Of a DNA stretch of 64,000 nt, positions 47,192 through 53,851 are shown piece after piece (within the stretch, counting starts at the first letter, position 1; every line of letters begins with the position of its first letter). The stretch is taken from the NCBI RefSeq assembly GCF_900117395.1, contig NZ_FPEG01000003.1, forward strand, positions 434,001 to 498,000, in the 5' to 3' direction. The notes beneath the pieces were generated by a model. It was not told where the DNA came from. It worked only from the letters and a program-made list of their open reading frames with translations, and searched no databases. Both the position numbers and the translations under genes were made by a program. The stretch comes from Agrococcus sp. Marseille-P2731 (GTDB lineage: Bacteria; Actinomycetota; Actinomycetes; Actinomycetales; Microbacteriaceae).

Positions 47192-47200
47192 GCCTCCACG

Positions 47201-47821
47201 CTAGTCGGCGGTGCTGCTCGCCTCGAGGCCCAGCAGCAGCTGCTTGGCCGCCGCCCCGCCGGCGTACTGACCGATGCCGCCGTCGCTGCGCACCACCCGG
47301 TGGCACGGGATGACGATCGGCAGCGGGTTCTTGCGGCACGCCGTGCCGACGGCGCGCACCGCGGCGGGCGAGCCCACCGACTGCGCCACCTGCGCGTAGC
47401 TGCGGGTCTGGCCGTACGGGATCTCGCGCAGCCGCTCGACCACGCGTCGCCCGAAGCCGCGCGCGAGCGCGAGGTCGAGCGCGCCGTCGTAGGTGCGCGC
47501 GTCTCCGGCGATCAGCCGCTCGAGGCCGCGCGCCGCGTCGTCGAGCAGCGCCGGCGCCTCGAGCACGCGGGGGCTGAGCGTGGCGGAGAGCCGCTCGAGG
47601 GTCGCCTCGGGGGCGGCGCCGTCGAAGGTGACCGAGACGAGCCCCGCGGGAGTCGCGGCGAGCAGCAGCGGGCCGAGCTCGGTGTCGAGCCTGCGATAGC
47701 CGACGTCGAGCAGCTGCTGCTCGGCGGCGCGCTCGGCGAGACGGGCGCGCAGCGCGGTCAGGGGCGCCGCCGGGAGCTCGAGGGATGCAGGCAGGTCGAG
47801 GTGCATCGCGTCGTCAGGCAC
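47201..47821 (-). CDS. ogt: Methylated-DNA-protein-cysteine methyltransferase (longer paralogue)
   Basis: Suicidal repair of O6-alkylguanine, 206 aa. Active-site IPCHRVV (Cys about 163) with RAVGTACRKNPLPI before it and a helix-turn-helix region around FGRRVVERLREIPYGQTRSYAQVA. The 45-residue N-terminal extension is helical and absent from the second copy. GTG at 47821 has GGGAGG five bases upstream and overlaps the sigma-factor stop by 8 bases (GTGCCTGA). Confidence 0.9.
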   Translation of the reverse strand: MPDDAMHLDLPASLELPAAPLTALRARLAERAAEQQLLDVGYRRLDTELGPLLLAATPAGLVSVTFDGAAPEATLERLSATLSPRVLEAPALLDDAARGLERLIAGDARTYDGALDLALARGFGRRVVERLREIPYGQTRSYAQVAQSVGSPAAVRAVGTACRKNPLPIVIPCHRVVRSDGGIGQYAGGAAAKQLLLGLEASSTAD

Positions 47822-48293
47822 CGTCGCCTCCCAGCAGTGCGCGCAGCCGACGCATGCCGTCCGACGAGGCGCGACGCGCCGCATCCGCAGACCCGCCGAT
47901 CGCTGCGGCCACGTCTGCGAACGGCAGGCCGCCGAGGTGGTGGAGCACCACCGTCTCGCGCTGGCGCGGCGAGAGCCGAGCGAGCGCGCGCGCCAGGTCG
48001 AGGTCGCGAGCGAGCCCCGGCACGGTCGAGTCGGGCGCCGCGCGATCGGGCACCTCGCCGACCACGAGCCGCGAGGACCGGCGCAGCACGTCGATGGACT
48101 TGCGGTGCGCGATGGTCACGAGCCATCCCTCGATGCTCGCGTCGTCGGCCAGTCGGGGGTAGGCCTCGAGCGCCGCGAGGAAGGTCTCGCTCCACGCGTC
48201 GTCTGCGTCGGCCTCGGGCAGCAGCGCCCTGCACACCCGCCAGACCCGCGTGCCGTGCTGCGCGACGATCGCATCGAACGGGGCACGGGTCAC
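47814..48293 (-). CDS. ECF-type RNA polymerase sigma factor
   Basis: 159 aa: sigma region 2 (FDAIVAQHGTRVWRVCRALL to DASIEGWLVTIAHRKSIDVLRR, about 5-80) and region 4 (ALARLSPRQRETVVLHHLGGLPFADVAAAIG, about 105-135). No anti-sigma gene is adjacent. GTG at 48293 overlaps the upstream methyltransferase stop (GTGA), and a TAGATT box 7 bases upstream may give a second, internal leaderless start. Context implies that it responds to alkylation damage or controls these repair genes. Confidence 0.88.
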   Translation of the reverse strand: MTRAPFDAIVAQHGTRVWRVCRALLPEADADDAWSETFLAALEAYPRLADDASIEGWLVTIAHRKSIDVLRRSSRLVVGEVPDRAAPDSTVPGLARDLDLARALARLSPRQRETVVLHHLGGLPFADVAAAIGGSADAARRASSDGMRRLRALLGGDGA

Positions 48294-48826
48294 GCGACCG
48301 AATCTAGCCCGCCGCCGGCAGCGCCGGTCGGGATGTCGCGGTCGCCGAGATCGAGCGCAGCGCCGACCTCGAGATCGAGCAGGAAGCGCTTGCGCTCCGT
48401 GCCGCCCGCGTACCCGGTGAGCGCGCCGCTCGCGCCGACGACCCGGTGGCACGGCACGACGATCGAGAGCGGGTTGCGGCTGTTCGCGAGGCCCACGGCG
48501 CGCACCGCGGTCGGCTGGCCGATGCATGCCGCGATCCAGCCGTAGGTGCGCGTCTCGCCGTAGGGGATCTCGCGCAGGGCGCTCCACACCCGCTGCTGGA
48601 AGGCGGTGCCGGCGGGGGCGAGCTCGAGGTCGAAGCCGGTGCGCTCCCCCGCCCAGTACTCGCCGAGCTGCGCCACGGCATCCCCGAACGCCGCGTCGTC
48701 GCGCTCGCCGAAGGCCGCCTCGTCGGGCGCTGGCCGGTGGTCGAGCATGTAGACGCCGCGCAGGCCCGCGTCGCCGCGGACGAGGGTGAGCGGGCCGATG
48801 GGACTGGAGATGGTGGTGTGCGTCAT
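48290..48826 (-). CDS. ogt: Methylated-DNA-protein-cysteine methyltransferase (shorter paralogue)
   Basis: 178 aa. The active site VPCHRVV, the arginine-finger region FQQRVWSALREIPYGETRTYGW and RAVGLANSRNPLSI are all intact. ATG at 48826 has GAGAGG nine bases upstream; TTG at 48853 is an alternative. A C-terminal tail of about 15 residues extends past the fold. First gene of a three-gene coupled unit ogt-sigma-ogt. Confidence 0.9.
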   Translation of the reverse strand: MTHTTISSPIGPLTLVRGDAGLRGVYMLDHRPAPDEAAFGERDDAAFGDAVAQLGEYWAGERTGFDLELAPAGTAFQQRVWSALREIPYGETRTYGWIAACIGQPTAVRAVGLANSRNPLSIVVPCHRVVGASGALTGYAGGTERKRFLLDLEVGAALDLGDRDIPTGAAGGGLDSVA

Positions 48827-48918
48827 GGTCGTATTCCTCTCATACCCTGCCAACGCGCGGGGCGGCTCGGATGTGAGGCTGTGGATCGCAGCCCGGCGCG
48901 CCGCCGTAGGCTCAGAGC

Positions 48919-53118: not shown

Positions 53119-53541
53119 ATGGCCATCACCTCGAACGCCAGCGCGACCTGGAACGGCGATCTCGCCTCGGGCAGCGGCACCGCACAGCTCGCCTCAGGAT
53201 CGAGCTTCGACCTGACCTGGAAGGCACGCGCAGAGGAGGGCGGCTCCGTGACGCCCGAGGAGCTGATCGCCGGAGCGCACGCCTCGTGCTTCTCGATGGC
53301 GCTCTCGCACACCCTCTCCCAGGCGGGTCACACCGCGGAGTCGCTCGCGACATCCGCGAAGGTCTCGTTCGTGGCCGGCACGGGCATCACCGGGAGCGCG
53401 CTCACGGTGACCGGGCGCGTGCCCGGGATCGACCAGGACCAGTTCGCCGAGTTCGCAGAGCAGGCGAAGGCCGGATGCCCGGTGTCGCAGGCGCTCGCCG
53501 GTATCGAGATCACGCTGGAATCCGCGGTGCTCGAAGGCTAA
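53119..53541 (+). CDS. OsmC/Ohr family peroxiredoxin
   Basis: 140 aa thiol peroxidase of the OsmC subgroup. Catalytic cysteines are in AHASCFSMAL (about 58) and KAGCPVSQAL (about 116). A strong AAGGAGG precedes ATG 53119. Reduces organic hydroperoxides. Confidence 0.93.
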   Translation: MAITSNASATWNGDLASGSGTAQLASGSSFDLTWKARAEEGGSVTPEELIAGAHASCFSMALSHTLSQAGHTAESLATSAKVSFVAGTGITGSALTVTGRVPGIDQDQFAEFAEQAKAGCPVSQALAGIEITLESAVLEG

Positions 53542-53542
53542 C

Positions 53543-53596
53543 TTGCGCTTCGTGCAATGTTCGCCCTAGCACTCGCGTGCAATTCCGGGCTATAAA
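53543..53596 (+). promoter_or_regulatory. Control region of the GDDFIIM peptide gene
   Basis: Holds CTTCGTGCAA (53548-53557) and CGTGCAATTCC (53576-53586), the same pair found upstream of the M23 gene, and a TATAAA box at 53591-53596. No -35 is evident at the expected distance; a TTGACA at 53602-53607 lacks a -10. Confidence 0.45.
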
Positions 53597-53634
53597 CAGA
53601 GTTGACAGACTTTCCAACTCAACGAAGGAGCATC

Positions 53635-53739
53635 ATGAAGCTCAGCAAGCCCGGCCGCCGTGGTGACGATTTCATCATCATGGGCGACCTCGTCATCACC
53701 GGCGACGACTTCATCATCATGGGTGGCGGCGACGACTGA
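53635..53739 (+). CDS. 34-residue repeat peptide (GDDFIIM repeats), unknown
   Basis: ATG at 53635 has GAAGGAG five bases upstream, and an intrinsic terminator starts 17 bases after the stop: a complete transcription unit. The peptide has a basic head (MKLSKPGRR) and then GDDFIIM, GDLVIT, GDDFIIM, ending GGGDD, i.e. three six- or seven-residue repeats opening with Gly-Asp. No signal peptide or TM. The repeated codons differ at wobble positions, so the repeat is kept at protein level. No family known to me; a modified-peptide precursor, a beta-stacking peptide or a small regulator are all possible. Confidence 0.75.
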   Translation: MKLSKPGRRGDDFIIMGDLVITGDDFIIMGGGDD

Positions 53740-53756
53740 CGCCAGCTCGAACCCGT

Positions 53757-53791
53757 AGCCGCGGCCCCGACATCCGAGTCGGGCCGCGGCT
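53757..53791 (+). terminator. Terminator of the peptide gene
   Basis: AGCCGCGGCCCCGAC (53757-53771) pairs with GTCGGGCCGCGGCT (53778-53791), one bulge, loop ATCCGA, followed by TCGGCTTTC. Confidence 0.8.
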
Positions 53792-53851
53792 TCGGCTTTC
53801 TGCGGGCAGGGCGCCGGTCGAGGCAGGACGGGTGCGGTGCCCGCGCAGCGC

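Follow-up and report, generated by a model that had tools for sequence, protein, structure and literature searches.

A small-gene family adjoining osmC in Agrococcus encodes short peptides with a constant IIM-ending motif

A gene of 34 codons at positions 53635–53739 (+ strand) of the window, the 64,000-nucleotide stretch of Agrococcus DNA analysed here, translates to MKLSKPGRRGDDFIIMGDLVITGDDFIIMGGGDD and a stop, and its homologues and pN/pS make it almost certainly a genuine protein-coding small gene. The first-pass annotation had described it as a complete small gene unlikely to be due to chance, and homologues in 17 of 24 Agrococcus genomes, one gene found per carrier, bear this out. A conserved ORF in close relatives, which had been named beforehand as what should be seen, is present, and its reading frame is intact in all 17 homologues. 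The peptides combine a head that differs among lineages with a short motif that stays constant, and the motif may serve, tentatively, as a docking site for a partner protein.

Selection on the peptide is upheld by comparison between species. Five non-overlapping gene pairs of equal length give a pN/pS of 0.24 (27 differences at 113 synonymous sites and 24 at 418 non-synonymous sites; one-sided binomial p 7e-7; Nei-Gojobori counting, with transition bias uncorrected). These pairs are independent, and the peptide is judged to be under selection. All 21 type III pairs, which are non-independent, give 0.29. Selection had originally been argued from wobble-base differences between the repeated codons; the conclusion stands, but such differences within one gene are weak alone, and it is the between-species comparison that shows the selection. 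An exact 7-residue repeat arises in only 2 of 200,000 shuffles of the 34-residue peptide.

The signals expected of a separate transcription unit surround the gene. A promoter-like element, CTATAAACAGAGTTGACAG (53590–53608, +), contains a −10 sequence TATAAA (53591–53596) that ends 38 nt upstream of the small gene, and a ribosome-binding site GAAGGAG (53624–53630, +) stands 4 nt before the ATG. A bulged GC-rich hairpin, a probable terminator (53757–53791, +), folds after the stop and is followed by TCGGCTTTCT. All 17 genes have a GGA-type ribosome site before the start and, downstream of the stop, a GC-rich hairpin (folds judged by eye). Thus the TATAAA, ribosome site and terminator that had been read from the sequence are present, but the consensus scanner reports no sigma-70 promoter and no + strand terminator at the small gene, because the −35 is not good and the T-run is weak or short. 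The putative promoter and terminator rest on conservation, not on the scanner. Transcription is predicted to begin near 53603 and to yield an RNA of about 190 nt. An element of the TATAAACAG type is seen again ahead of the small gene in relatives, and the pattern CTATAAACAGAGNTGACGG, with two mismatches or fewer, is found once per genome in 7 of the 24 genus genomes, always upstream of the small gene; the other 10 carriers fall below this match threshold, and the reversed CTATAAACAGAGNTGACGG, run as a control, has no match in the genus genomes. The element was considered as the mark of a regulon and rejected, since it is found solely at the small gene in the 24 genomes. All six type II genes share a TACATTC-centred element instead, and one of them (G013) also has a TACAACTAGAGGTGACGGGG stretch resembling that of the other types. 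This G013 gene (L036/L113), with a GTG start and both upstream element types, TACATTCAGCAGTAG and TACAACTAGAGGTGACGGGG, looks intermediate. Farther upstream, alignment by eye places a possible operator, GTGCAATGTTCGCCCTAG, at 53552–53569 (+), where it is weak in this genome; at the same place, relatives with head types I, III and IV carry a GCAAAGTT..CTAG-like sequence or its inverse, AACTTTGC. This GCAAAGTT/AACTTTGC-like box, found in one or the other orientation on the upstream side of the TATAAACAG element, is possibly the binding site of a regulator.

Across the family the peptides are 32–38 aa long, and consist of a head of one of four types, variable linkers and one to three copies of the motif. 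The pattern [GED]D[DGP][FWD]IIM fits 34 intact copies in the 17 peptides, a number that does not measure independent conservation since the pattern itself requires IIM and the copies share descent; no IIM occurs elsewhere in the peptides. Two or more units are found in 16 of 17 peptides, and G017 has a single copy. In the window, copy 1 (GDDFIIM, 53662–53682, +) is followed by GDLVIT (53683–53700, +) and copy 2 (GDDFIIM, 53701–53721, +). The first-pass annotation had counted three Gly-Asp repeats here; two of them are confirmed as GDDFIIM copies, but the conserved unit is the seven-residue pattern above, and GDLVIT, seen only in this genome, is a decayed unit; the peptide of the nearest relative (G001) instead contains GDDFIIM three times, always intact. 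The other decayed unit is DPVLEATM in G017. Type I heads (G000, this window, and G001) read MK(L/F)(S/N)KP(G/S)RR and precede two or three GDDFIIM; type II (six genomes) has M.FKQLPTHL.. and then two (E/D)DDFIIM; type III (seven genomes) has MK...QLP(T/I)HLL.. and then two GDDDIIM separated by four residues, the second followed by the stop; type IV (two genomes) has MRPNKNDLS.SK, with GDGWIIM twice in G007 and GDPWIIM once in G017. The heads are kept within types II and III, where QLPTHLL precedes the repeats in 11 of 13 peptides and QLPIHLL and QLPTHLM in one each, and are replaced in types I and IV. All seven type III peptides keep the two GDDDIIM copies unchanged, while head residues 3–5 vary freely. 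Fifteen of the 17 peptides carry a net charge of −3 to −5, and both type IV members one of +1.

The product is probably a short, disordered peptide of the cytosol, and its expression, disorder and location are inferred here. AlphaFold2 gives a mean pLDDT of 54.7 and a pTM of 0.20, with only short strands at residues 14–16 and 19–21, from a thin alignment (15 close sequences) whose thinness alone may account for the low confidence. The predicted model is uninformative, and such a pLDDT is compatible with disorder and not proof of it.

The family is confined to the genus Agrococcus in the genomes searched. A peptide search of 149 relatives returned clear homologues in the same genus, and a profile built from seven sequences recovered the gene from 15 of the 24 genus genomes, with E values no higher than 1.7e-5. 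The two diverged members (G007 and G017) were found by reading the DNA past osmC in the 22 genomes that have osmC, and a profile made from this pair brings up no more members in the genus (other matches E 0.2 or worse). Five genomes with osmC (G003, G008, G012, G021 and G023) have no similar gene after it, and in two others (G009 and G015, 65 and 86% complete) neither an osmC match nor the small gene was found. In G023 (L116), several near-identical tandem units of the kind CACCAGCACCGCTCGGTGAGGTGCGAGCGCAGCGAGC.. follow the osmC stop where others carry the small gene. Outside Agrococcus, no convincing homologue was found in the 149 relatives or in 398 family, 396 order and 396 phylum genomes, draws that overlap and take in some genus members, and none in the plasmids, phages and viral contigs searched. 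The matches beyond the genus are weak (best E 0.0027 and 0.0056). All but three lie in open frames of at least 120 aa and were presumed to be chance; the three in shorter frames (L023, L028 and L087) were inspected one by one, two of them facing a longer open frame on the opposite strand and the third containing a stop. A pattern scan that took a single genome from each of 84,980 species, demanded F-type codons twice and is therefore blind to types III and IV returned four Agrococcus stretches with the doubled motif (A. pavilionensis, A. lahaulensis, A. sediminis and Agrococcus sp. HG114) and five others, which were dismissed as unrelated hydrophobic repeats. The A. lahaulensis gene (strain DSM 17612) is of type II and 38 codons long. 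The W-type motif pattern matches none of 299 family genomes, a draw outside which the two known carriers lie. At osmC loci of other genera, a similar small ORF was found in none of the 27 read (of 79 genomes with osmC), where the ORFs listed were those of 20–60 aa with a GGAG, AGGA, GAGG or GAAGG site. An osmC tree of 21 of the 22 genus rows (G003 left out) is too poorly resolved to place gain or loss of the small gene, with three of 19 inner branches starred.

The gene has the same position in all carriers. osmC, encoding an OsmC-family peroxiredoxin (53119–53541, +; NCBIfam TIGR03562, 154 bits), adjoins it upstream on the same strand in 17 of 17 carriers at a distance of 89–166 nt, 93 nt in the window, where a convergent gene for a zinc-binding dehydrogenase follows the small gene. 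The linkage to osmC may be functional or may reflect plain shared descent, because gene content upstream of osmC is largely conserved too: in 20 stretches, each about 20 kb long (17 carrying the small gene and 3 lacking it), the upstream clusters c0, c2, c3 and c1 are found in 18, 18, 17 and 17, respectively, as judged by self-scripted gene calls and clusters; in the other genomes the neighbours were compared by clustering. The genes after the small ORF vary, the commonest downstream cluster being present in 11 of 20 stretches and none in all loci; from 53740 onward in the window, and at the corresponding place in relatives L147–L166, the region is variable, and gene content differs until shared genes are reached some kilobases away. 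A Pfam scan of 14 neighbour proteins, taken from self-made gene calls and lying no more than about 10 kb away in this genome, assigned a family to 13 and left one without a match. They include a hydrolase, an amidotransferase, an S51 peptidase, an asparaginase, an FAD oxidase, an FKBP, an alcohol dehydrogenase, two O6-methylguanine-DNA methyltransferases, a LytR-family protein, a seryl-tRNA synthetase, a lipid kinase and a prephenate dehydratase; NCBIfam assigned osmC and an antiporter. The two genes with 6-O-methylguanine-DNA methyltransferase domains lie side by side at about 47200–48855, in the conserved stretch upstream of osmC. A leader or attenuator peptide for the downstream gene was considered and rejected, since the following genes differ between genomes and a hairpin follows the stop.

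By these searches the family is new. The earlier statement that no family matches is borne out in Pfam, NCBIfam, PHROGs and PDB sequences, the members scanned being the 15 of types I to III. The best E values are 0.32, 0.05 and 0.23 for Pfam, NCBIfam and PHROGs, respectively, to unrelated or unnamed models matched by one to three members each, the sole Pfam match being LbR_Ice_bind (E 0.32, one of 15 members). The strings DDFIIM, GDDDIIM, QLPTHLL, GDGWIIM and GDDFII were not found in the literature searched, nor was the small gene in the accessible portions of the literature on Agrococcus, bacterial small proteins and multi-core RiPPs. Several known systems are similar in some respects. First, taxon-restricted bacterial small proteins (encoded by sORFs, <50 aa) are likewise short, limited to one genus, unannotated and transcribed as units of their own, but the Agrococcus family differs from them in its unusually constant tandem motif (34 copies in 17 peptides) and its switching heads. 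Second, RTX or beta-roll repeats are, like the peptide, Gly-Asp-rich with hydrophobic residues, whereas the spacing in the peptide is 7–13, with three copies at most and without the GGxGxDxUx nonapeptide. Third, SUMO-interacting-type motifs of eukaryotes place acidic residues next to three or four hydrophobic ones and often occur in tandem; this and other acidic-hydrophobic beta-augmentation motifs offer a likeness in how the peptide might work, and no homology is claimed.

The reading that we tentatively favour, because the motif is constant, the copy number variable and the heads exchangeable, is that of a cytosolic multivalent docking peptide. The peptide would consist of a lineage-variable head and one to three constant [G/E/D]-D-[D/G/P]-[F/W/D]-Ile-Ile-Met copies acting as a multivalent short linear motif, and a short constant motif in variable context, a feature of such motifs, is what the 17 peptides display. 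Because the composition is acidic-hydrophobic, the IIM stretch might pair as a short beta strand with the exposed edge of a partner protein, and the aspartates might contact a basic rim of that partner. Two or three copies would raise avidity, and the peptide could work as an inhibitor, tether or adaptor. Against this reading, the type IV charge of +1 and the single copy in G017 indicate that neither acidity nor multivalency is universal. Mimicry of a beta-clamp motif or FtsZ tail was considered and set aside. It is conceivable but doubtful that the family represents a new class of docking or core peptide, whose tandem units, borne by different heads in different lineages, would either serve a conserved protein of Agrococcus as a multivalent binding motif or be turned into a small modified peptide by an enzyme that is encoded in trans and independent of PqqD.

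An unlikely alternative to docking is a multi-core RiPP precursor, in which the QLPTHLL-type head would be the leader and the tandem units the cores, with the enzymes encoded elsewhere. Near-identical tandem units of varying number, which follow a conserved head in types II and III, would suit such a precursor, but that head gives way to others in types I and IV. However, in RiPP precursors the leader is expected to be more constant than the core, and here the repeats vary less than the heads. Among the 14 neighbour proteins scanned there is neither a RiPP modifying enzyme nor an exporter, no downstream cluster is common to all loci, and the PqqD-type recognition domain (PF05402) is found in none of the 24 genus genomes, with three of 14 control genomes positive; a PqqD-like recognition element is, for its part, dispensable in some RiPP classes.

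Rather unlikely, too, is a redox or metal peptide of the oxidative-stress response, in which the Asp and Met of each copy would bind metal or take up oxidant. The OsmC-family peroxiredoxin next door in every carrier and the Met that ends every intact copy would fit such a role, but the two Ile vary no more than the Met does and would not be needed for a purely chemical role of Met, and shared descent explains the linkage as well. A secreted signal or leaderless bacteriocin is very improbable. Small size, a separate transcription unit and fast turnover of the head could be so explained, and a putative leaderless-bacteriocin gene cluster is reported from Agrococcus sp. SL85 (PMC11580447). However, the prototype of that class is described there as highly cationic, with five tryptophans, and members of the aureocin A53-like kind are cationic, Trp-rich and about 50 aa long, whereas the peptides here are acidic in 15 of 17 and 32–38 aa long; no signal peptide is seen by eye, and no exporter is among the neighbours scanned.

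It is also very improbable that the conserved entity is the RNA, as a small RNA or structured mRNA, with the peptide as a by-product or second function. The stretch 53590–53805 does fold better than its dinucleotide shuffles (z −4.25), and all seven type III genes share an unchanged CGACAT-CATC-ATGTCG stem, but the former holds the terminator hairpin, and the latter is absent from other types (by eye) and its invariant pairs give no covariation. Codon-preserving resampling of the coding part in the 17 genes leaves a small excess of structure (mean z −0.94, range −2.83 to +0.47), on which an RNA element as the sole function was rejected, and substitutions favour synonymous sites. Finally, a chance ORF, which the shortness of the gene and the silence of the scanner might suggest, is effectively ruled out by homologues in 17 of 24 genomes with an intact frame at one syntenic place and by the pN/pS of 0.24.

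Therefore, a 34-codon gene spotted by eye in raw sequence belongs to a true family under selection, and searches limited to known families would miss it across a whole genus. Should the motif prove to act in docking, its constancy would make the partner findable, and the switching of heads would provide natural controls.
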